The position numbers and the translations under genes are program-made. Below the pieces are notes generated by a model. It was not told the DNA's origin and made no database searches. It worked only from the letters and a program-made list of their open reading frames with translations. From Daphnia pulex (taxonomy: Eukaryota; Arthropoda; Branchiopoda; Diplostraca; Daphniidae), in the NCBI RefSeq assembly GCF_021134715.1, contig NC_060023.1, positions 10,168,001 through 10,232,000 on the forward strand: a stretch of DNA of 64,000 nucleotides. Reading direction: 5' to 3'. Below are positions 31,103 to 55,760 of the stretch, one piece after another; the first letter of the stretch is position 1, and each line of letters opens with the position of its first letter.

Positions 31103-31976
31103 CTATCCAGAGTGGCGGACGTATCCATTGTATTTGCCGTATTCTTCGTCCTTGTAGCTGGTTTCGTTGCTCTGGTATTTCTTTTCCTTTTTCTTGTTGT
31201 CACCTTTGCTCGATTTCGGTTTTTTGTATCCCTTTGGCTCGTCGTCCTTTTCTTCCTCGGAATCGTCTCCCTTTTTGTAGCCTTTAGATGCCTTGGATTT
31301 TTCGCCTTTTGGTTCGTATTCCTTCGCCTCTTCAGAGTCTTGACCTTTCTTGTAGCCTTTAGGAGCCTTGGATTTTTCGCCTTTTGGTTCGTATTCCTTT
31401 ACTTCTTCAGAGTCTTGACCTTTCTTGTAGCCTTTGTACACGGGCGGTTTCTCGTATTCCTTCACTTCCTCCGAGTTGTGTCCTTTTTGGTAGACGTATG
31501 GTTTTTGGTAACCGTAACTCTGTACAGCAGGGCGAGGGAGGACTGGGTGGTGGACAACGGGGTGATATTGAACGGGGTGATGTTGAACGGGCTGATGTTG
31601 AACGTATCCGTGTCCGCTATTGTGGTCTTGGAAGTAAATACCGAGACATGTTTTAATTTGTTTCTAGAAACAATGTTAGGGAAATGACTTTTACAAACCC
31701 TTACTATTATAAGTGTTATATCCGTGGTTGTTGTGGTGGTGTTTTGGCTTTTGTAGGACTTGTCCGTAGGTATTGGCGTGATCGTAGTTTGCGTACTGGT
31801 AGCGTCTTCCTTTTGTCTCGGAGAGCTCCAAGTCATTCTTTGCGGTAGGATTCTCGGCGTAAGCTACGATTGCCAAAGTTGCTAAAGCGATCAGTGCGAT
31901 CTGCATACCGGAAAAAGTGAATTAGACATGGAAAACTTTTAAATGAATTTGAATGTTGTACCTTAAACGCAGACAT
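31103..31976 (-). CDS. Secreted Lys/Glu-rich repeat protein with DLELSETKGRR motif
   Basis: Exons 31962-31976, 31699-31900 and 31103-31626 (minus) give 246 residues. A five-codon first exon (MSAFK) leads into a signal peptide (IALIALATLAIVAYA). The mature start carries DLELSETKGRRYQY, shared with the gene at 33270-34081. Then follow a His/Gln-rich part (VQHQPVQHHPVQYHPVV), a YGYQKPYVYQK stretch, and three or so 24-residue units of the type GYKKGQDSEEAKEYEPKGEK. A charged C-terminus ends YVRHSG. The intron-2 donor is GTTTGT. No cysteines. I do not recognise a known family; composition suggests an extracellular matrix, cuticle or secretion component. Read from the plus strand the region looks like an open frame, but that is a shadow. 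Confidence 0.8.
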
Positions 31977-41884: not shown

Positions 41885-42445
41885 AAAGTTCAACCTGCAG
41901 ACGGTCCGGCCAGTTTGCATGTCCTTCACTTTCAAAGGTCAGGGAGATCATTACGTGTAAAACTGTCAATGCGGTGGTGAAGAGGTTGGGTGAGAACGGG
42001 AAGTGTTACATCATTATCAAGCAGGTACAATAGCCGCAAGGGTAAGCCATTTGGTATTCATTTTGATATTGGTTGTTGTAGACCCATCCCCAGCAACCTC
42101 AACCTAAAGAAGGAAAGGGCAGTTTTCATGTAAAATCTTTCAATCGAAGGTCACGGAGATCATAACGTAAAACGTGTCATGCGGTGGTGTAGAGGTTGGG
42201 TGAGAATGACACGTGTTTCATCATTATCAAGCAGGTACAATAGCCGCAAGGGTAAGCTATTTGGTATTCATTTTGATATTTGTTTTTGTAGACCCATCCC
42301 CAGCAACGTCACCTGCAGAAGGAAAGGCTAGTTTGCATTTCAATCGAAGGTCATGGAGAACATAACGTAAAACGTGTCATGCAGTGGTGTAGAGGTTGGG
42401 TGAGAACGGGAAGTTTTGCATTATTATCAAAAAGGTAGAATAACC
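41885..42445. repeat. Three tandem copies of a ~200-bp unit
   Basis: The segment GAGGTTGGGTGAGAA recurs at about 41971, 42189 and 42391, each followed by CATCATTATCAAGCAGGTAC-type sequence. Copies are followed by ACCCATCCCCAGCAAC. A shorter relative lies at 42890-43020. The same repeat closes the right arm of the inverted duplication around 54256-54560. Confidence 0.7.
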
Positions 42446-42478
42446 GCAAGGCTTAAGAGGAGGGGTGAGAAAAAGTCG

Positions 42479-42513
42479 TATAAAAGGCGAGAGAAAAGTC
42501 GATAGGGATCAGT
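42479..42513 (+). promoter_or_regulatory. Promoter/first-exon unit 1 of the YYTE gene (left arm)
   Basis: TATAAAAGG at 42479-42487 and initiator TCAGT at 42509, 30 bp apart. A conserved first-exon stretch ATCTCCGACACGG follows. The usual ATGG that abuts the donor GTAAAT reads ATTGG here (about 42587-42591), so this unit lacks the start codon. Confidence 0.65.
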
Positions 42514-42669
42514 CGAGCGAGTATCTCCGACACGGTAACAGCTGCATTCCACTATCTGCCACAAGCTGCATTCATCAGTTCTCAATCATTGGTAAATATT
42601 CTGTCGAATTATTCTGTGTTACATGGAGTTTAAATATGCCAGTTATTGAATAGCCAAATTATTTAATGT

Positions 42670-42799
42670 CTAGTCGTAAAAAAGGAGAGAAGGCGATAGA
42701 AATCAGTCGAGTGAGAATCTCCGACACGGTAATTGCAGTCTGTAGTCACTATTCGTTACCAACTGCATTCTTTGTGGTATTATCAGTTCGTAATCATGG
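42670..42799 (+). promoter_or_regulatory. Promoter/first-exon unit 2 (left arm)
   Basis: Follows an intron-end-like GTCTAG directly. The TATA position reads CGTAAAAAAGG, so the box is damaged. TCAGT and ATCTCCGACACGG are kept, and ATGG at 42796-42799 stands at a GTAAATATT donor. Spliced to 43219 it would begin MVNYVVVLML. Confidence 0.55.
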
Positions 42800-43034
42800 G
42801 TAAATATTCTGTTTATTTACACGGAGTTTTTGTACCAATTCTTTTTTTATTTGATAATTTACCAGTCACAATCGGAAAAATTTGATGTTCACGCTTGGAG
42901 GTCACAAGAAACATTTCGTAAAACTGGCATGCGGTGGTGAAGAGGTTAGGTGAGAACCGGACGTTTTGCATCATTATCAGAAAGGTACAATAGCCGCAAG
43001 GCTTAAGAGGAGGGGTTAGGGTGAGAGAAGGTCG

Positions 43035-43069
43035 TATAAAAGGAGAGAGCAAAGGTTATAGAAATCAGT
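43035..43069 (+). promoter_or_regulatory. Promoter unit 3, main promoter of the left YYTE gene
   Basis: TATAAAAGG (43035-43043) and TCAGT at 43065, exactly 30 bp apart, the canonical arthropod spacing. It lies directly upstream of the first exon with a full signal-peptide start (ATG 43115). The mirror copy is at 53639-53673. Confidence 0.75.
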
Positions 43070-43114
43070 CGAGTGAGTATCTCCGACACGGCAACAGCAA
43101 CTGCAGTGCACAAT

Positions 43115-44799
43115 ATGTCAGCAACTGCCTTCTTGGTCGCTTTACTGTTCTCAATCATCTGTTTGTTAACATGCCAGTTTTTATTGAATGCAAATGTTTA
43201 AATTTATTAATTGTCTAGTAAACTATGTCGTCGTGCTGATGTTGGGGAATGTATCGGCTCGTTCAACCACTGGTGTACTGATGTCTTCTGGGTATGGCGG
43301 GTATGAAACCGCGACGCCGCACGTTACTACACCGAGGCCCCTAAGTACTACACTACCAAGTCTCCAGATTATTACACCACTACTTCGCTGCCCCGAACTA
43401 CTACACCGAATCCCCGAAATATTATTCTTCCCCAAGCTACGCCATCAAAGGGTCGAGTACTACATCGAGGACCCTGATTACTACACCACTACATATCATG
43501 GGTAAATATTCTGTTACATGGAATTTAAATATGCCAACTATTGAATATCCAAATCATTTATTGTCTAGTCGTATAACAGGAGAGAAGGCGATAGATACAG
43601 TCAAATGGTTATCACCGACATGGCAACAACTGTAGTGCAGTAGTGGTCACCAACTGCATTCTTCATCGTACAACCAGTTTTGCAATCATGGGTAAATTTT
43701 TTTTTCCTGAGGTGTGAATTCGTGTTTTCTATTTTTCAACATGGCAGTTATTTTTGCATATTAATTTTTCAATTTAAATATTGTTTAGTAACTATTTTGT
43801 CGTGCTGCTGTTGGGTGTCGTTTCGTTGATGGCTGAGTCGACCACTGGTGTACTAATGTCTCCTGGGTATGGCGGATCCCAAAGCACGACGCCGCCGTCT
43901 TACTATGCAACAACAACAAATGACACGACCAGTTACTACACCGAGGCCCCCAAGGAACCGGAGTATTACACAACTACAAATGCCGCGCCAGCTTATTACA
44001 CCGAGGCTCCCAAGTACTACTCTGCTCCCAGCTACTACACCGAGGTTTCAGCTTATTACACCACTGAAACAGTTGAATACTACACCGAAGTAATCATGGG
44101 TAAATATTATGATCTTTGTTTCATTGAGATGTGAATCAAATCTACTTTAATATTTTATTATGTAAGTTATTATTGCATATGAATGTTCTAATTTTTTTTT
44201 GTCTAGTAAACAATGGCCTGCTGCTGTTAGGTGTTGAATCGTTGATGGCTGGATTGACCACTGGTGTGTCGATGTCTCCTGGATATGGCGGTTATCAAAC
44301 CACAACGCCGGCGTCTGACTGCACGACAACAACAACATACGCAACGACCAGTTACTACACTGAGGCCTCCAAGTACTACACCACCAATATTCCAGATTGT
44401 ATACAAAAACATAAGCTGTCCCGAGTTACTACACAGAAGCCCCGAAGTATTATTCTTCCCCGAGTTCCACCACCAAGTCATCGGAGTATTACACAACTTC
44501 GTATGCAGCGCCAGCTTACTACACCGAGGTTCTCAAGAACTACTCTGCTCTCAGCTACTCCACCGAGGCTCCAGCTTATCACACCACTAACGGTCGAAAA
44601 CTTCACAGAAGTGCCAAAGTACTACTCTGCCCCGAGCTACACAACCCTAACTGAGGCGGCCAAGTATTACGTAGCCCTAACTTTCTACACAACTGCTGCC
44701 CCTTCGTATTACGCTGAACCAAAATACTACACTGAAGACCCAGTTTGCTACACCACAACCTACGCTACACTCTGCTACTACACCGAAGCTCTGAAGTAG
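43115..44799 (+). CDS. Secreted YYTE-repeat protein, three modules (left arm)
   Basis: Exons 43115-43160, 43219-43501, 43789-44099 and 44207-44799 join in frame to 410 residues. The first exon gives a signal peptide start MSATAFLVALLFSI. Each of the next three exons begins with a hydrophobic leader (NYVVVLMLG, NYFVVLLLGVVSLMA, NNGLLLLGVESLMA). A shared TTGVLMSPGYGGYQ-like motif follows, then Tyr/Thr-rich repeats (SYYTEAPKYY). Module A and part of module C are read in a shifted frame, giving TTP and LHR runs instead of YYT. Exon-1 donor is GTTTGT, used elsewhere in this window. A poly(A) signal follows at 45025. No known family recognised; Tyr-rich secreted repeats suggest a cuticle, silk-like or adhesive role. 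Some modules may instead be decaying. Confidence 0.6.
43569..43691 (+). promoter_or_regulatory. Promoter/first-exon unit 4, inside an intron (left arm)
   Basis: Damaged TATA (GTATAACAGG), modified first-exon sequence and ATGG at 43688-43691 before GTAAAT. It lies between modules A and B. From this ATG, splicing to module B at 43789 meets an early stop, so this unit is probably a relic or drives a non-coding start. Confidence 0.5.
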
Positions 44800-45024
44800 T
44801 ACACTACGAAGGAACCTGAGTTTTATGCCACTACATACGATGTTCCGACCTGCTACACCGAAGTTTTAAGTATTACTCTGCTCCGAGTTATTACACCACT
44901 AAGGGATCTGAATGTTACACCACGACCGACGGTTCTCCAGATAACTACAAGGAGGCTTCTAAACTAGATCTGAAATTGTTTTTCATGTGATTTCACTGAG
45001 AATTGTTGTTGATGTTGAATGAGA

Positions 45025-45030
45025 AATAAA
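45025..45030 (+). terminator. Poly(A) signal of the left YYTE gene
   Basis: AATAAA 226 nt after the stop. The mirror copy on the minus strand is at 50458-50463. Confidence 0.6.
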
Positions 45031-45379
45031 TTTGTATGCGGGTAAACATCTTGTAAAACTTTTCTTAAATCCTTCAAGCCTTTTGCCATTGCGAAGTGTT
45101 CTCATTGTTTTAGATCTTTCCTAATTAACTTATGTCTGAAAACTCTGCTAAACAACATTCTGAAGTGGACGAATTTCATTATCAGGTCAAGTTACGAGAG
45201 AAACGTACTACGTTCTTTAAATTTTCATAAATGTTTACTGAAAGCAAGTCTTGAGATAAATAATGTAATATATATTACAAGACACAATGAACAAATACTT
45301 AAAAAGGAATTGCTATTTTGTCCCACCTCCACCCACAATTCCACCACATTTTACAATCACATACATACATACACTTAAG

Positions 45380-45665
45380 TTAACCCGTTGGCTGCCACGC
45401 CATACAACCCGTAGGTTGCTCTCTACTAATCTACGCGCCACGTCTGAAGGATCCATGACCAAGTGGGACTTGCCATTGCTGACAAGTCCGTGCTGACAAG
45501 GGGGGTGGGGGGACTGAGGTGCATTGCCTTATAACAGGCTTGCCTTGCGGCAAATTTTGGGCTTGGCGACTCTCCGACCCCGCGGCTTGTAAACCACGAG
45601 ACCGAACAGCGCGGCCCGTGCAGGGGAGCTAGGGGAGAACAAAGGCGTGGCAGCCGACGGGTTAA
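45380..45665. mobile_element. piggyBac-like MITE, left copy
   Basis: TTAA (45380-45383), then CCCGTTGGCTGCCACGCC, and at the far end GGCGTGGCAGCCGACGGG, then TTAA (45662-45665). The terminal inverted repeats differ at one base. A TTAA target duplication with termini starting CCC is the piggyBac signature. The 278-bp interior has no transposase, so the element is non-autonomous. The open frame 45529-45750 on the minus strand crosses the element end and is not taken as a gene. Confidence 0.8.
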
Positions 45666-45929
45666 CTAACACTAACACAAATATATTACCAACAACAAAT
45701 GATGATCCGCGCTGACATTTTGGAGATACCGGCGAAGTTTTGGTGTCCATCTTCTCGACGTTTCCTCTGCATTACCTGAATAAAGAGAAAACAATTCTGA
45801 TTAAGTGACATGCCAATAAAAGTTACATAATACAGATGGAAACAATAATCAGGTTTTTAAGCTCAAACATTTAAAGATACACTTTTTTTAACTTAAAATC
45901 AAGCTTGCAATATTGAGAACTGTAAACAG

Positions 45930-46317
45930 AACAAAGCTCACTTGCTAGTTACAAAAAAAAATTCCAGAAGTAGACCGGAAGTAACCACAGCGCCTCAACC
46001 ATTGAGCTGTCGTCAAATTAAACCACATATTCGTGATCTCCATAAAATTTGGGGTCGATTAGGTGTGATTTAAACGAAATCCAAAATTTGGCCAAAATCG
46101 AGAATTTTCCTGAACTATAGTTCAGGAAAATTTTCGAAACCGGAAGTACGAAAACGTAAAAAAGATAACATGAACTTTACCACAAATTTTACGAGGATCA
46201 CGAATATGTGGTTCTTTTGCTCCTCGAATGCATATTTACTTAACTACTGACTGAAATGAGCAAACCGGAAGTAGAAAAAAAACCACATTTTTAAGAATCT
46301 AACAAGTGAGCTTTGTT
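45930..46317. mobile_element. Foldback MITE with central 30-bp palindrome, left copy
   Basis: Bounded by AACAAAGCTCACTTG (45930-45944) and its exact reverse complement (46303-46317). Inside, AACCACATATTCGTGATC-type sequence near 46020 reappears inverted near 46195, and the centre is a perfect 30-bp palindrome at 46103-46132 (half-site AATTTTCCTGAACTA). ACCGGAAGTA occurs three times (about 45974, 46139, 46264). No coding capacity. No obvious target duplication. Superfamily undetermined. Confidence 0.75.
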
Positions 46318-46569
46318 GGAGGAATAGATATCGTCAGTTTCCACTAAAAAATTTCCACACAACAGCTGCCGATAAATGTTTAAAGAGATTTCAAAGTAAC
46401 TGAAACTGACTGTTTTGACAGCTGCAAATTTTTGAAAAGCCATCTAGCGTTAGAAAAAAGAATCTAAGTATCTCCATCTAAGTAACACACTAACACTTCT
46501 TTTACGCACACGAAGGGCCTGATTTTGGAATTACTACACAGACAGAGTTTTACGCAAATAGATAACTAG

Positions 46570-47705
46570 TAGATAATCTAAGAAAATAAGTCAATTGTTG
46601 GGTACCTGGGCATAATCCCGTGGTGAGTGACTGCAGGTGTGTAACAGCGGACGGAAGCGATCACTGTTAAAGTGATCCAGAAACTCGCCAAGTCGCCAGT
46701 GAAGTAAAACCAATTGTGTTTAGAAGCAGTGAAACTTGATGAGCGTGCGTCACGAAGATAAGGATGGAGAAGAACGTTGATGGAGTCCCTCTTCCGTCAT
46801 GGACAAAGGTCAGCATTCAGCACAAGAATCTCCGTGACAGGACCACACGATTCCATAAAGAAACTGCGTGCTTCTGTAATATAAATTGTTTTTCATTAAT
46901 AAAAATTTAACTGTCAATAAAGCATATCAATCTTTACCTATTTTAAGAAGCACACTGATTGTTCATGATGAAAAAACCGTGAAAATGGAATTCACTGCAA
47001 CCAACAGCATTGCTCCACATGTTGAGATAAATTTCCTGATGCTCAAGAAAGTGTCATGAAGTATTGCAGTAGCATGGTGATAGGTGGTTCACTTCACACT
47101 CTTCATGTCACTGAAACTCTAAGTGGAAACGGGACAAGGAAATTCTCTATGTTATTTACAATTTACACAAATTTACCTATGAGAAATAAAACTGTACCTA
47201 TCTCTTAGCTGGGCTGCCTTCTAAACAGAAGTAAAAACAGCCATAACAACAAACATGCTGTTGCAGGGTACGCCACCAAAATTGCGAGATTCAGAAAAGA
47301 TCCTATGATTCAAGAATACCTATGTTACATGAAAATCTGAATTGTAATGGTCTGGTAGCAGTAATTGGAAAATACCTTATTTCGGTATTCCACTATATGT
47401 GTGCTTCAAACATGAGTTTTAGGCTTTTGACTGCATGAGGATCTAATGGATGGAAATTGACTCAGCGCTAAGTCAACTTGCTGGAATGACTGACAGTATG
47501 CATCTGAATTTGGAGAAATAAGTTGGTACAGTATAAAAATAATGAAACTATGTCAAGATAAACCTACATAAGTTACGAACTTCAATTTGGTATATGAAAT
47601 CACAGGAATATAAGTATTAATTAGCTACAATTTGTTTCGCCTTTTTCGCCTCGTTTCTCGATGTAACAACAACAAAGGCGACACTAGCGACATCTAGTAA
47701 TGCGT
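46570..47705. repeat. Unclassified repeat, left half of the central spacer
   Basis: Reverse-complement relative of 47735-48918 but with frequent mismatches and indels, unlike the flanking arms. The inner end is a block GGCGACACTAGCGACATCTAGT near 47678-47700 preceded by AACAACAACAA. The same end closes a third copy at about 55556. No open frame of note; probably a degenerate non-autonomous transposon. Confidence 0.65.
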
Positions 47706-47734
47706 TTTGAAATCCTAATTCGTAAGTAGGTAAC

Positions 47735-48918
47735 TAGATGTGGCTAGTGTCGCCTTTGTTGTTGTTTAATCGTGAAACGAGGCGAAAAAGGCGAAACAAA
47801 TTGTAGCCATTTAATACTTATATTCCTGTGATTTCATTTACCAAATTGAACTTCGTAACTTATACAGGTTTATCTTGACATAGTTTCCTTATTTTTATAC
47901 TGTATCAAATTATTTCTTCAAATTTTAGATGCATACTGTCAGTCATTCCATACAAGCTGACTTAACGCTCAGTCAATTTCCATCCATTAGGCCCATCATG
48001 CTATCAAAAGACTAAAACTAATGTTTGAATCTCACATATGGAATACACATCTCCAGAGTAAAGGTATTTTCCCATTACTACTACCAGACCATTACAATTC
48101 TGATTTTCTTATAACATAGGTATTCTTTTTCATGAACCATAGGACTTTTCTGAATCTCGCAATTTTGGTGGTGTAACCTGCAACATTATGTTTACTGTTA
48201 TAGCTGTTTCTACTTCTGTCTAAAAGATAACCCAGCTAAGAGATAGGTAGAGTTTTATTTCTCTTAGGTAAATTTGTGTAAATTTGTAAATAACATAGAA
48301 AATTTCCTTGTCCCATTGCTACTTAGAGTTTCAGTGACATGAAGAGTGTGATGTGAATAATGATGTGTGTATGCATACATGTTCCAGTTCTGCTTGATGC
48401 CTTACTAAATTCATCACCCGTATGATAAAGGTAAGCATCAATACCACCTATCACCAAGCTACTGCAACACTTCATGACACTTTCTTAATTAGCATCAGGA
48501 AATCTCAACATGTGGAGTAATGCTGTTGGTTTCTGTGATTTCCATTTTTACGGTTTTTTCATCATGAAAATTGCAGTGTGCTTCTTAGAAAAGGTAAAGA
48601 TTGATATGCTTTATTAACTGTTATATTTTCATTAATGTAATACATTTTATTTTTACAGAGCACGTAAGAGATCCTTAAGCCAATGCTGATCATTCTCCAT
48701 GACGGAAGAAGGACTTCCACCTACGTTCGGCTACATCCTAATCTTCTCGACGTACGATCATCCAGCTTCACTGCTTCAGTGCTTCTTATGCTGAAAAACA
48801 ACTTTTCTTGCTTCACTGGCGAGGCTGGATCACTTCAGTTGCTGTGACACACCTGCAATCACTCACCACGGGATAACGGCCAGGTACCGGACAATGACTT
48901 ATTTTCGTAGATTATCTT
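47735..48918. repeat. Unclassified repeat, right half of the central spacer
   Basis: Inverted relative of the left half, starting CTAGATGTGGCTAGTGTCGCC near 47737-47757. It contains an insertion relative to the left half around 48350-48430. Together the halves form an old, imperfect palindrome whose axis is near 47720. Confidence 0.65.
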
Positions 48919-49170
48919 CTAGTTATCTATTTGCGTAAAACTCTGTCTGTGTAGTAATTCCAAAATCAGGCCCTTCGTGTGCGTAAAAGAAGTGTTAGTG
49001 TGTTACTTAGATGGAGATACTTAGATTCTTTTTTCTAACGCTAGATGGCTTTTCAAAAATTTGCAGCTGTCAAAACAGTCAGTTTCAGTTACTTTGAAAT
49101 CTCTTTAAACATTTATCGGCAGCTGTTGTGTGGAAATTTTTTAGTGGAAACTGACGATATCTATTCCTCC

Positions 49171-49558
49171 AACAAAGCTCACTTGTTAGATTCTTAAAAA
49201 TGTGGTTTTTTTTCTACTTCCGGTTTGCTCATTTCAGTCAGTAGTTAAGTAAATATGCATTCGAGGAGCAAAAGAACCACATATTCGTGATCCTCGTAAA
49301 ATTTGTGGTAAAGTTCATGTTATCTTTTTTACGTTTTCGTACTTCCGGTTTCGAAAATTTTCCTGAACTATAGTTCAGGAAAATTCTCGATTTTGGCCAA
49401 ATTTTGGATTTCGTTTAAATCACACCTAATCGACCCCAAATTTTATGGAGATCACGAATATGTGGTTTAATTTGACGACAGCTCAATGGTTGAGGCGCTG
49501 TGGTTACTTCCGGTCTACTTCCGGAATTTTTTTTTGTAACTAGCAAGTGAGCTTTGTT
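49171..49558. mobile_element. Foldback MITE, right copy
   Basis: Mirror of 45930-46317, with the 30-bp palindrome at 49356-49385. Confidence 0.75.
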
Positions 49559-49822
49559 CTGTTTACAGTTCTCAATATTGCAAGCTTGATTTTAAGTTAA
49601 AAAAAGTGTATCTTTAAATGTTTGAGCTTAAAAACCTGATTATTGTTTCCATCTGTATTATGTAACTTTTATTGGCATGTCACTTAATCAGAATTGTTTT
49701 CTCTTTATTCAGGTAATGCAGAGGAAACGTCGAGAAGATGGACACCAAAACTTCGCCGGTATCTCCAAAATGTCAGCGCGGATCATCATTTGTTGTTGGT
49801 AATATATTTGTGTTAGTGTTAG

Positions 49823-50108
49823 TTAACCCGTCGGCTGCCACGCCTTTGTTCTCCCCTAGCTCCCCTGCACGGGCCGCGCTGTTCGGTCTCGTGGTTTACA
49901 AGCCGCGGGGTCGGAGAGTCGCCAAGCCCAAAATTTGCCGCAAGGCAAGCCTGTTATAAGGCAATGCACCTCAGTCCCCCCACCCCCCTTGTCAGCACGG
50001 ACTTGTCAGCAATGGCAAGTCCCACTTGGTCATGGATCCTTCAGACGTGGCGCGTAGATTAGTAGAGAGCAACCTACGGGTTGTATGGCGTGGCAGCCAA
50101 CGGGTTAA
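49823..50108. mobile_element. piggyBac-like MITE, right copy
   Basis: Exact mirror of 45380-45665, at the same relative place in the other arm. The insertion therefore preceded the inverted duplication or was copied by later conversion. Confidence 0.8.
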
Positions 50109-50688
50109 CTTAAGTGTATGTATGTATGTGATTGTAAAATGTGGTGGAATTGTGGGTGGAGGTGGGACAAAATAGCAATTCCTTTTTAAGTATTTGTTCA
50201 TTGTGTCTTGTAATATATATTACATCATTTATCTCAAGACTTGCTTTCAGTAAACATTTATGAAAATTTAAAGAACGTAGTACGTTTCTCTCGTAACTTG
50301 ACCTGATAATGAAATTCGTCCACTTCAGAATGTTGTTTAGCAGAGTTTTCAGACATAAGTTAATTAGGAAAGATCTAAAACAATGAGAACACTTCGCAAT
50401 GGCAAAAGGCTTGAAGGATTTAAGAAAAGTTTTACAAGATGTTTACCCGCATACAAATTTATTTCTCATTCAACATCAACAACAATTCTCAGTGAAATCA
50501 CATGAAAAACAATTTCAGATCTAGTTTAGAAGCCTCCTTGTAGTTATCTGGAGAACCGTCGGTCGTGGTGTAACATTCAGATCCCTTAGTGGTGTAATAA
50601 CTCGGAGCAGAGTAATACTTAAAACTTCGGTGTAGCAGGTCGGAACATCGTATGTAGTGGCATAAAACTCAGGTTCCTTCGTAGTGTA

Positions 50689-53593
50689 CTACTTCAGAGC
50701 TTCGGTGTAGTAGCAGAGTGTAGCGTAGGTTGTGGTGTAGCAAACTGGGTCTTCAGTGTAGTATTTTGGTTCAGCGTAATACGAAGGGGCAGCAGTTGTG
50801 TAGAAAGTTAGGGCTACGTAATACTTGGCCGCCTCAGTTAGGGTTGTGTAGCTCGGGGCAGAGTAGTACTTTGGCACTTCTGTGAAGTTTTCGACCGTTA
50901 GTGGTGTGATAAGCTGGAGCCTCGGTGGAGTAGCTGAGAGCAGAGTAGTTCTTGAGAACCTCGGTGTAGTAAGCTGGCGCTGCATACGAAGTTGTGTAAT
51001 ACTCCGATGACTTGGTGGTGGAACTCGGGGAAGAATAATACTTCGGGGCTTCTGTGTAGTAACTCGGGACAGCTTATGTTTTTGTATACAATCTGGAATA
51101 TTGGTGGTGTAGTACTTGGAGGCCTCAGTGTAGTAACTGGTCGTTGCGTATGTTGTTGTTGTCGTGCAGTCAGACGCCGGCGTTGTGGTTTGATAACCGC
51201 CATATCCAGGAGACATCGACACACCAGTGGTCAATCCAGCCATCAACGATTCAACACCTAACAGCAGCAGGCCATTGTTTACTAGACAAAAAAAAATTAG
51301 AACATTCATATGCAATAATAACTTACATAATAAAATATTAAAGTAGATTTGATTCACATCTCAATGAAACAAAGATCATAATATTTACCCATGATTACTT
51401 CGGTGTAGTATTCAACTGTTTCAGTGGTGTAATAAGCTGAAACCTCGGTGTAGTAGCTGGGAGCAGAGTAGTACTTGGGAGCCTCGGTGTAATAAGCTGG
51501 CGCGGCATTTGTAGTTGTGTAATACTCCGGTTCCTTGGTGGTGTAGTACTTGGGGACCTCAGTGTAGTAACTGGTCGTGTCGTATGTTGTTGTTGCATAG
51601 TAAGACGGCGGCGTCGTGCTTTGGTATCCGCCATACCCAGGAGACATTAGTACACCAGTGGTCGACTCGCTCATCAACGAAACGACACCCAACAGCAGCA
51701 CGACAAAATAGTTTACTAAACAATAATTCAATTGAAACATTAATATGCAATAATAACTGGCATTTAAAAATATAGAATAAATGTAGAGCTGATTCACATC
51801 TCAAGAAAAAAATTATTTACCCGTAATTGCAAAACAGTTGGGACGACGAAGAATGCAGTTGGTGACGACTACTGCACTGCAGTTGTTGCCATATCGGAGA
51901 TGACCACTCGACTGATTGTAGTGGTGTAGTACTGCCATGGTGGTGCAGTAATTAGGGGCCTCAGTATACTACTCAAAGCTTTGGTGTAGTAGCTCGGGGC
52001 AACATCAGTTGTGGTGTAACACTCTGGAGCTTTAGTGGTGAAGTACTTGAGTCGACACGAACATCACACGACTGCTTATTTCTTTCGCCTTTTATCTCCT
52101 TTTATACGACTAGTCTAGACAATAAATAATTTGAATATTCAATAGTTGGCACATTGAAATTCCATGTAACAGTATATTTACCCATGATATGCAGTTGTGC
52201 AGTACTCCTGTGCCTTGGTGGCGTATTATTTGGGAACCTCGGCGGAGTGCTCGACCCTCTAGTAGTGTAGCACGAGGAAGAATAATACTTCGGGGATTTG
52301 GCGTAAGTAGTTCGAGAGAGCATAATGTAATAATCTGGACACTTGGCGGTGTAGTAACTGGTCGTTGCGTATGTTGTTGTCGTGCAGTCAGACGCCGGCG
52401 TTGTGGTTTGATAACCGCCATATCCAGGAGACATCGGCACACCAGTGGTCAATCCAGCCATCAACGATTCAGCACCTAACAGCAGCAGGCCATTGTTTAC
52501 CAGACAAAAAAATAAATTAGAACATTCAAATGCAATAATAACTAATATATTTAAAAATTAAAGTAGAGTTGATTCATATTTCAATAGAATAAAATCATAA
52601 TATTTACCCATGATTACTTCGGTGTAGTATTCAACTGTTTTAGTGGTGTAATAAGCTGGAACCTCGGTGTAGTAGCTGGGAGCAGAGTAGTACTTGGGAG
52701 CCTCGGTGTAATAAGCTGGCGCGGCATTTGTAGTTGTGTAATACTCCGGTTCCTTGGGGGCCTCGGTGTAGTAACTGGTCGTGTCATTTGTTGTTGTTGC
52801 ATAGTAAGACGGCGGCGTCGTGCTTTGGTATCCGCCATACCCAGGAGACATTAGTACACCAGTGGTCGACTCAGCCATCAACGAAACGACACCCAACAGC
52901 AGCACGACAAAATAGTTACTAAACAATATTTAAATTGAAAAATTAATATGCAAAAATAACTGCCATGTTGAAAAATAGAAAACACGAATTCACACCTCAG
53001 GAAAAAAAAAATTTACCCATGATTGCAAAACTGGTTGTACGATGAAGAATGCAGTTGGTGACCACTACTGCACTACAGTTGTTGCCATGTCGGTGATAAC
53101 CATTTGACTGTATCTATCGCCTTCTCTCCTGTTATACGACTAGACAATAAATGATTTGGATATTCAATAGTTGGCATATTTAAATTCCATGTAACAGAAT
53201 ATTTACCCATGATATGTAGTGGTGTAGTAATCAGGGTCCTCGATGTAGTACTCGACCCTTTGATGGCGTAGCTTGGGGAAGAATAATATTTCGGGGATTC
53301 GGTGTAGTAGTTCGGGGCAGCGAAGTAGTGGTGTAATAATCTGGAGACTTGGTAGTGTAGTACTTAGGGGCCTCGGTGTAGTAACGTGCGGCGTCGCGGT
53401 TTCATACCCGCCATACCCAGAAGACATCAGTACACCAGTGGTTGAACGAGCCGATACATTCCCCAACATCAGCACGACGACATAGTTTACTAGACAATTA
53501 ATAAATTTAAACATTTGCATTCAATAAAAACTGGCATGTTAACAAACAGATGATTGAGAACAGTAAAGCGACCAAGAAGGCAGTTGCTGACAT
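50689..53593 (-). CDS. Secreted YYTE-repeat protein, five modules (right arm)
   Basis: Exons 53548-53593, 53207-53489, 52608-52918, 52182-52475, 51389-51715 and 50689-51281 (minus) join in frame to 617 residues. First exon, module A, module B and last module mirror the left-arm gene. Two additional modules lie between: one at 52182 (GVPMSPGYGGYQTTTPASD) and one at 51389 with the cleanest repeat run (SYYTEVPKYYTTKEPEYY). At the module starting near 52499 the usual acceptor is mutated from AG to GG. The next AG, 24 nt downstream (TTAG before GTGCTG), keeps the frame. The module at 51389 preserves the original leader NYFVVLLLGVVSLMS without the one-base loss seen in module B. Relics of a promoter and YYTE sequence lie at 51790-52180. 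Confidence 0.58.
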
Positions 53594-53638
53594 ATTGTGC
53601 ACTGCAGTTGCTGTTGCCGTGTCGGAGATACTCACTCG

Positions 53639-53673
53639 ACTGATTTCTATAACCTTTGCTCTCTCCTTTTATA
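53639..53673 (-). promoter_or_regulatory. Main promoter of the right YYTE gene
   Basis: Minus-strand TATAAAAGG (53665-53673) and TCAGT about 30 bp downstream, mirroring the left-arm promoter at 43035. Two further units mirror left units 2 and 1 at about 53910-54040 and 54120-54235. Confidence 0.7.
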
Positions 53674-54565
53674 CGACTTTTCTCACCCTGATCCACCTCT
53701 CAAGCCTTGTGGCTATTGTACCTTTTGATAATGATGCAAAACGTCCGGTTCTCACCTAACCTCTACACCACCGCATGCCAGTTTTACGAAATGTTTCTTG
53801 TGACCTCCAAGCGTGAACATCAAATTTTTCCGATTGTGACTGGTAAATTATCAAATAAAAAAAGGATTGGTACAAAAACTCCGTGTAAATAAACAGAATA
53901 TTTACCCATGATTACGAACTGATAATACCACGAAGAATGCAGTTGGTAACGAATAGTGACTACAGACAGCAATTACCGTGTCGGAGATTCTCACTCGACT
54001 GATTTCTATCATCTTTTTTTCTCCTTTTTTACGACTAGACAGACAATAAATAATTTAGCTATTCAATAACTGGCATATTTAAACTCCATGTAACACAGAA
54101 TAATTCGACAGAATATTTACCAATGATTGAGAACTGATGAATGCAGCTTGTGGCAGATAGTGGAATGCAGCTGTTACCGTGTCGGAGATACTCGCTCGAC
54201 TGATCCCTATCGACTTTTCTCTCGCCTTTTATACGACTTTTTCTCACCCCTCCTCTTAAGCCTTGCGGTTATTCTACCTTTTTGATAATAATGCAAAACT
54301 TCCCGTTCTCACCCAACCTCTACACCACTGCATGACACGTTTTACGTTATGTTCTCCATGACCTTCGATTGAAATGCAAACTAGCCTTTCCTTCTGCAGG
54401 TGACGTTGCTGGGGATGGGTCTACAAAAACAAATATCAAAATGAATACCAAATAGCTTACCCTTGCGGCTATGGTACCTGCTTGATAATGATGAAACACG
54501 TGTAATTCTCACCCAACCTCTACACCACCGCATGCCAGTTTTACGAAATGTTTCTTGTGACCTCC

Positions 54566-54899
54566 AAGCGATGCAAAAAAACACAACGAAGACATGCAAA
54601 AATTGTAACGAATTGAAAACTCCTCACATATGTTGACTGCAAAGTTACCTCGAGTATGAGTGAGAATTCCCTAGAGTCCAGACTCCAGAGCTATTATTCC
54701 AAACTGATATCAAGACGTCGAAAAAGGCCAGTAACGGCAACCAGCGCCAACTCCATTGACCCCAAAACGAAATTCATAAAATTCGTGTTTGCACGTCTGT
54801 TGGAAAGAATGAAATGATTATTGACTATATGGATTTAAAAAATAAAATTGTTTCCTATTATACATCTGTACTCATTTACAGATCTGGTACATGTACATA
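54566..54899. other. Unique sequence outside the right arm
   Basis: No similarity to the left flank and no coding signal seen. Confidence 0.5.
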
Positions 54900-55556
54900 C
54901 ACATTGCAGGTTATTCACTTGACACTCTTCATGTCACTGATTTTCTAAACAGCAATTGGACAAGGAAATTATCTACGTTATTTCCAAATTTACCTATACA
55001 AAATAAATCTTTACCTAACTCTTAGCTGGGTTGCCTTCTAAACCGAAGTTAAAACAGCCAAAACAACAAAAATGCTGTTGCAGGTACACCACCAAAATTC
55101 AGAAACGAGATTCAGAAAAGATCCTATGATTCATAAGCAAGAATACCCCTATGTTATATGAAAATCTGAATTGTAATGGTCTGGTAGTAGTAATGGGGAA
55201 ATACCTTATATTGGCACATTTGTATTCCTCTATGTGTGGGCTTGCTTCAAACATGAGTTTTAGGCTTTTGACAACATGAGGGTCTAATCCGATGGAAAGT
55301 GACTGAGCGCTAAGTCAACTTGTTGGAATGACTGACAGTATGCATCTAGATTTTTGGAGAAATAAGTTGGTACAGTATACAAATAAGGAATAAACTATGC
55401 CAAGATAAACCTACATAAGTTACGAAGTTCAATTTAGTATATGAAATCACAGGAATATAAGTATTAATTAGCAACAATTTGTTTTGCCCATTTCGCCTCG
55501 TTTCACAAAGCAACAACAACAAGGGCGACACTAGCGACATCTAGTAATGATGTCGG
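54900..55556. repeat. Third copy of the central-spacer repeat
   Basis: Matches about 47085-47705 in the same orientation, for example CTTAGCTGGG(T/C)TGCCTTCTAAAC, GATTCAGAAAAGATCCTATG and the end GGCGACACTAGCGACATCTAG. Diverged by substitutions and small indels. It ends where the other copies end, which marks a real element terminus. Confidence 0.75.
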
Positions 55557-55609: not shown

Positions 55610-55760
55610 AAAAAAAAAAAACGTGCGCGCCCAAATAAAAATAATTTTAGGTTAGGGTAGGTTAGGTTATGTTAGGTTAGGGGTGTTTTGTGATGGGCGC
55701 GCAGGTTTTTCGCGCAAATTAGAGTGCGCGCTTCGCGCAAATTAGGGACTCCCGTACACC
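55610..55760. repeat. Low-complexity GTTAGGTTAG tract between GC-rich CGCGC blocks
   Basis: About 35 bp of irregular GGTTAGGTTA/TAGGTTAGG units at 55649-55690, followed by GGGCGCGC and repeated CGCGCAAATTAG (twice, near 55711 and 55732). The pentamer resembles the arthropod telomere repeat TTAGG but is irregular and short. Confidence 0.55.

Follow-up and report, generated by a model that had tools for sequence, protein, structure and literature searches.

Does the locus at positions 42138 to 54570 of the window analysed here (64,000 nucleotides of the Daphnia pulex genome, contig C7, 10168001 to 10232000) encode a multi-part secreted protein with internal signal peptides, or is it the remains of something simpler? 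The original prediction saw an inverted repeat carrying three modules in its left arm and five in its right, each module being one exon with a signal-peptide-like leader and YYTE repeats, spliced into long open chains; the inverted repeat and both module counts are borne out by self-alignment. We consider it likely, with a probability of about 0.78, that the locus is a decaying cluster of fused copies of a gene for a secreted repeat protein rich in tyrosine (Tyr) and threonine (Thr), lying inside a palindrome, rather than a gene for a working multi-part protein. The genome, which we take to come from a cyclical parthenogen, was searched over 133.19 Mb in 13 contigs.

Structure of the palindrome

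The longest ungapped pieces shared by the arms, 43947-46593 with 48895-51541 (2,647 bases) and 43028-43705 with 53003-53680 (678 bases), are both 100% identical, and the right arm holds an extra two-module tandem unit relative to the left. The parts are as follows.

42138..54570, no strand: large inverted repeat (palindrome) of approximate extent, genes facing the centre (self-alignment)
43219..43501, plus: left module 1 exon, leader frame open, repeats frame-shifted three times (chain rebuilding and frame comparison)
43789..44099, plus: left module 2 exon (m2a), free of frame switches, its acceptor side short of one A (TAACTATT, against TAAACTATT in m2b)
44207..44799, plus: left module 3 exon, leader then frame-shifted repeats, TAG at 44797-44799, decayed repeats beyond, AATAAA at 45025
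45280..47718, plus: left half of the palindrome core, common to other loci on contigs C7, C9, C10 and C11
47733..50208, minus: right half of the palindrome core
50689..51281, minus: right module 5 (m3b), identical to left module 3
51389..51715, minus: right module 4 (m2b), no frame switch
52182..52499, minus: right module 3 (m3a), acceptor GG
52608..52918, minus: right module 2 (m2a)
53207..53489, minus: right module 1, identical to left module 1

The intact family has one module

Four intact relatives examined elsewhere in the genome have one module each. Their exon 1 ends in ATGG/GTAAATATT and is followed by a single exon with a leader, the GVPMSPGYGGYQ motif and Tyr/Thr repeats running to hundreds of residues, in stop-to-stop frames of 548, 347, 340 and 333 amino acids (aa); the repeat part of the gene at 2.078 Mb on C7 is 26% Tyr and 23% Thr. 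The ratio of nonsynonymous to synonymous substitution rates (dN/dS) is 0.09-0.27 in all six pairs of these members and third codon positions are the most changed in each pair, so the intact family is coding and constrained. Judged by its composition, the product is probably a secreted structural protein, such as one of cuticle or eggshell. It resembles the Tyr-rich structural proteins of arthropod cuticle and eggshell in its leader, its low complexity and the Tyr content of its repeats in that one member, but differs from them in that a Pfam scan of two family proteins, one of them intact, brought no family to the cut-off (only Cornifin was found, at 31.3 bits against 34.8, over a short stretch of the intact protein).

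The leader search scored 150 of 794 candidates, on which the neighbour counts given below also rest. Taking as intact a frame open over at least 270 aa with a stop-free leader match, 18 of the 150 qualify; 94 stay open over fewer than 120 aa, and the median open length is 93 aa. At locus L043 a truncated leader module, which has an exon 1 of its own, stands ahead of the intact member.

The window modules share with this family a leader followed by a GVPMSPGYGGYQ-like motif within one exon. The exon-1 end ATGG/GTAAAT, which stands beside intact genes (e.g., L043, position 611), is found at 42796 and 43688 and is lost or altered in three further promoter/exon-1 copies (P1, P3 and the fifth copy, listed below). 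A repeat frame running uninterrupted to its stop is absent from the window: modules 1 and 3 switch frame, and module 2, free of frame switches, nevertheless runs into a donor without a family-type end.

Signs of decay in the window copies

Frame switches were traced by comparing the window exons with intact family proteins and following the frame of best match along each exon. Module 1 passes through frames 3, 2, 1 and 3 and module 3 through frames 3, 2, 3 and 2, three switches each; left module 2, right modules 3 and 4 and both intact control genes have none. The claim that every module consists of a leader plus YYTE repeats holds in part only: the modules exist, but in modules 1 and 3 the YYTE repeats are not clean.

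The left arm has three promoter/exon-1 copies upstream of module 1 and one between modules 1 and 2, and all four are defective.

42479..42591, plus: P1, TATAAAAGG present, exon-1 end ATTG (start codon lost), donor GTAAAT
42674..42799, plus: P2, TATA lost (TCGTAAAAAAGG), ATGG at 42796-42799, in frame with module 1
43035..43160, plus: P3, TATAAAAGG present, ATGG/GTAAAT deleted (as judged by eye); the original prediction used an alternative ATG at 43115 with donor GTTTGT
43572..43691, plus: P4, lying between modules 1 and 2, with degenerate TATAACAGG and an ATGG that is in frame with module 3 but not with module 2
51821..52106, minus: fifth copy, right arm, TATAAAAGG present, start codon altered (ATTACGG/GTAAAT)
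53017..54233, minus: right-arm copies of P1 to P4, TATA-like at 54233, 53673 and 53136, P2 copy with TCGTAAAAAAGG at 54034

Exon 1 of P4 joined to m2a gives 14 codons and then a stop; the right-arm copy of P4 (P4') keeps its ATGG at 53020-53017.

The left chain of the original prediction (43115-43160, 43219-43501, 43789-44099 and 44207-44799) is indeed open over exactly 411 codons including the stop. The 618 codons of the right chain can be reproduced, but only if right module 3 starts from a cryptic acceptor (52475), its normal one reading GG instead of AG (gtctgg/TAAACA at 52499; the chain from there has 626 codons). This cryptic start cuts the hydrophobic leader off right module 3, the 13-aa Kyte-Doolittle maximum falling from 1.85 to 1.38, so that a leader opens every unit of the left chain and not every unit of the 618-codon chain. 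Elsewhere the maximum is 2.87 in m2a and 2.67 in m2b, against 2.62 in an intact gene; module 1 read from the family start has 1.82 and module 3 has 2.03. The start codon proposed for the chain, at 43115, turns out not to be that of the family, which P3 has lost. P2 does join module 1 in frame, giving chains of 397 (left) and 612 (right) codons, the latter again using the GG acceptor. The modules had also been said to end like a first exon; the donors do read ATCATGG/GTAAAT, but in both arms the final module closes with a stop instead.

How much, then, do the open chains signify? In one intact member the three forward frames (547-548 codons each) contain 0, 2 (frame +1) and 26 (frame +2) stops. 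With just 2 stops in 547 codons, frame +1 of the repeat DNA is all but free of stops, so that shifting into it carries hardly any penalty and an open chain is weak evidence; we estimate that the two free junctions of the left chain would be open by luck about once in nine times.

Relatives of the locus do not conserve the chain frame. In the sister palindrome at 11.03 Mb on C7, a TAG follows shortly after the GYGGYQ motif of the first module-3 copy (a 48-aa stop-to-stop frame) and breaks the chain. Module-2 homologues at 2.157, 9.156 and 9.04 Mb show frameshifts (2.157 and 9.156 Mb), a stop or a lost leader, and one at 10.03 Mb was aligned in part only. The module end itself reads ATTG at 9.93 Mb, ATTA at 2.157 Mb and ATTG at 9.04 Mb. 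Two signs named in advance as telling against the chain, transcripts that start separately before each module and absence of transcription together with accumulating stops in relatives, are in part present at the level of sequence, promoter/exon-1 copies standing before modules 1 and 2 and right module 4 and stops and frameshifts occurring in relatives.

Divergence between the left arms of the 10.21 Mb (window) and 11.03 Mb palindromes, both on C7, agrees with this picture for two of the three modules. Module 1 differs at 9/283 sites (3.2%) and module 3 at 21/588 (3.6%), or 14/381 (3.7%) against the other copy, compared with 57/1,786 (3.2%) in the core and 12/245 (4.9%) in the 3' flank. Module m2a differs at 3/311 (1.0%), or 8/311 (2.6%) if the comparison is with m2b; the intron between modules 1 and 2, which contains a promoter copy, differs at 3/287 (1.0%). 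Modules 1 and 3 thus diverge like core and flank, and the low divergence of module 2 is common to one noncoding neighbour; none of this is proof that constraint is absent. Changes were too scarce for dN/dS of module 2 among 15 pairs of close copies; its recent differences, in six columns, are five nonsynonymous and one synonymous (P about 0.07, calculated by hand against an omega of 0.26).

Origin of the modules by fusion

That the modules are formerly separate genes fused together was a sound part of the original prediction, as the junctions match another gene's exon-1 end and intron 1 and the same kind of event recurs elsewhere. From the end of module 1 through its downstream intron to the promoter copy beyond, the sequence agrees with the P1-to-P2 stretch at 179 of 211 aligned bases, and the end of module 2 with its intron matches P4 exon 1 and its intron at 92 of 112. 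Family repeats stand directly before both module ends (ACTACATATCATGG and ACACCGAAGTAATCATGG). Neighbour fusions recur, because at locus L047 on C2 repeats are likewise joined in frame to a longer exon-1 piece, with the junction ATTG. Fusion of neighbouring gene copies is therefore a supported origin for the modules.

In the reading that we prefer, that of a decaying cluster, the working form would be one module: exon 1 (5' untranslated region and ATGG), intron 1, then an exon with signal peptide, GVPMSPGYGGYQ, YYTEAPKYYTT-type repeats and stop. Recombination between neighbours fused one gene's repeats with the exon-1 end and first intron of the gene after it, as the junction sequences show, and so left modules that end like a first exon; at other places it ran intron 1 into the promoter that follows. 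We regard the in-frame chains as most likely mere by-products, given that frame +1 is almost stop-free and that damage affects modules 1 and 3, the promoters and one acceptor. Of all the pieces, module 2 shows the least damage, and it may still be translated.

Unprocessed pseudogenes and chimeras produced by unequal recombination in tandem families are similar in their neighbour fusions, lost promoters and acceptors, and frameshifts. Here, by comparison, the fusion point is the start-codon exon end, making an open frame with several leaders. A multi-leader protein, if true, would be unusual; the evidence points to decay.

Family-bearing palindromes across the genome

The window is one of several places where the family lies in palindromes. 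The exon-1 word occurs 494 times at up to one mismatch (reversed control 0), a 22-base core word has 395 exact copies (control 0) and an upstream motif 135 (control 0). With neighbours counted up to 15 kb apart, the 150 scored leader matches include 34 convergent, 2 divergent and 16 tandem pairs (34 versus 2, P = 2e-8), and both members have equal open-frame lengths in 24 of the 34 convergent pairs. Other probes lean the same way in their convergent, divergent and tandem counts, respectively: exon-1 words 15, 1 and 15 (first 100 of 494); core words 12, 3 and 1 (first 100 of 395); upstream motifs 22, 0 and 10 (first 100 of 135, limit 18 kb); inner core 6, 1 and 0 (40 scored of 334 candidates); and outer core 13, 0 and 0 (40 scored of 344 candidates). 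Intact frames are not clearly rarer in convergent pairs (5/18 versus 63/132 others, Fisher P = 0.13).

Self-alignment found palindromes in 6 of 16 regions, and one more region has an inverted pair of 1.2 kb; among the nine left, several consist of a single 10-kb piece, unable to show a distant arm. Two later loci, chosen as looking paired, both proved palindromic, for a total of eight by alignment. In the four palindromes with both pieces measured, the core arms are 97.7, 99.7, 99.9 and 100% alike and the best matches to another locus 91.8, 98.9, 98.9 and 96.6%, a margin that is small in three. The window arm pieces, 100% alike, reach 96.0% at best to other loci. Matches of the core halves end near window positions 47711-47742 in several loci, both arms in the 9.04-side pieces, C11 and L041 among them; because this centre is common to several loci, the palindrome predates the identity of its arms. 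A shared centre and arms more alike within than between loci fit arm-to-arm gene conversion, which probably keeps the arms alike. The 9.93 Mb palindrome is a misfit and goes against conversion, its arms being 90.5% alike and its left core 96.7% alike to another locus; assembly polishing could inflate arm identity.

Scored core copies lie on C2, C3 and C6-C12. Of 22 exact exon-1 sites on C1-C5, only 2 have the exact core word within 8 kb downstream, which is a severe criterion. Alignment shows a core match of at least 250 bases in 16 of 17 fetched regions, and none in C9_7.436. The share of gene-less core copies is not derivable from these figures, because most regions were chosen for holding the gene.

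We tentatively suggest, as a possibility about which we are doubtful, that the family is held genome-wide in palindromic units of two convergent genes round a shared core, that conversion would spread damage and fusions to both arms, and that such units would generate fused multi-leader frames, some of them expressed. Gene-bearing palindromes with arm-to-arm conversion are described for the primate Y chromosome, Adineta vaga and Folsomia candida in a palindrome survey of parthenogenetic animals, which names D. pulex among three species that it could not screen (PMC7953838). The likeness lies in inverted gene copies and similar arms; the units here differ in being very roughly 10-16 kb long and in carrying one repeat-protein family at several places in one genome. 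A literature search of titles and abstract openings brought up no description of the family or of such palindromes in Daphnia, and we claim nothing wider. The palindromic layout is the part worth following, more than the multi-leader chain, and such units could show directly whether arm-to-arm conversion in autosomal palindromes preserves genes or spoils them.

Could the whole palindrome instead be a mobile element that carries the gene? Its core is dispersed, as the copies of the core word and the contigs listed above attest, but 19 aligned 5' ends have neither a common outer end nor a target-site duplication (four of them, in L041 and L042, are cut by the fetched stretch), and no stop-to-stop frame of at least 150 aa was found in the core. 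We regard this as unlikely.

A transposon with fixed ends was rejected, the aligned arm ends sharing no boundary; at the window there are only upstream repeats, at 41960-42460, spaced about 200-210 bases apart.

Core loci on C1-C5 (first 100 of 395) look spaced apart when compared post hoc with a truncated exponential: among gaps below 500 kb, 2 of 66 are below 50 kb against 11 expected (P = 0.0006; Kolmogorov-Smirnov P = 0.05). For exon-1 words the figure is 2 of 39, where 6.8 would be expected (P = 0.024; Kolmogorov-Smirnov P = 0.21).

Weighing the alternatives

Several observations weigh against decay as the full account. In the right arm, joining P4' to m2b and m3b, with m2a and m3a skipped, gives an open frame of 308 codons that begins at the start codon typical of the family. 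All six module-2 copies that were translated are open, one of them from the 9.93 Mb locus, and the six columns of module-2 differences are too few to demonstrate lost constraint. The loss of one A suits m2a to the phase-2 end of module 1 and not to exon 1, which is readable as upkeep of the chain (luck would do it one time in three). The introns between modules 2 and 3 differ at 12/106 and 6/105 sites, more than the adjoining exons (module 3, 3.6-3.7%; module 2, 1.0-2.6%), an excess that the intron between modules 1 and 2 lacks and that would also fit some constraint on the exons.

Some of these points would suit short proteins of one or two modules, mainly module 2, still spliced from some exon-1 copy (e.g., P4' to m2b), the rest being dead. 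Module m2b keeps TAAACTATT, whose phase fits an ATGG exon 1, and the ATGG of P4' and the open module-2 copies would serve such a product. However, m2b's own exon 1 has no ATG, m2a is out of frame with P4, P4' must skip two exons, and the homologues at 2.157, 9.156 and 9.04 Mb are broken; on these grounds we consider such proteins improbable.

The chains would have to be expressed as one protein with internal signal sequences, either cut by signal peptidase into secreted pieces or spanning the membrane several times, for the functional claim of the original prediction to hold, and this we find highly improbable. In its favour are the open frames of 411, 618 and (P4'-m2b-m3b) 308 codons, the GTAAAT donors and the leaders of m2a and m2b, which are as hydrophobic as that of an intact gene, the leaders of modules 1 and 3 being less hydrophobic. 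Against it stand the frame switches of modules 1 and 3 and their divergence, about that of core and 3' flank, the lost acceptor of right module 3, the promoter relics within the chain and the broken relatives, among them the sister palindrome with its stop; this sequence record lends no support to a functional multi-leader protein.

That the palindrome is an assembly artefact, such as a fold-back or two haplotypes head to head, is scarcely credible despite the perfect identity of its two long arm pieces, given that the arms differ by a two-module unit and that same-core palindromes occur at other loci on C7, C9, C10 and C11, the core piece being 82.6-98.9% identical between loci.

Other features of the window

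Inside each core half a stretch (45380-45665, mirrored at 49823-50108) is bounded by TTAACCCGTTGGCTGCCACGCC and a near-inverse copy, like a small transposon with TTAA ends. In relatives, the upstream region that matches window 41960-42460 contains AAGGTCA followed by TTACGTAA, the pair motif with 135 exact copies genome-wide; the two resemble nuclear-receptor (FTZ-F1-like) and bZIP sites. Degenerate TTAGG-type repeats at 55648-55682 lie about 100 bases from an extra decayed core piece at 55392-55549; TTAGG is the usual arthropod telomere unit. On the minus strand at 31103-31663, an open frame with lysine/glutamate-rich repeats (KGYKKGQDSEEVKEYEPKGEKSK) and Tyr is another possible structural protein, and at 511-1206 an open frame resembles an exon of a P-type ATPase, which we take to be Na/K-ATPase alpha-like.

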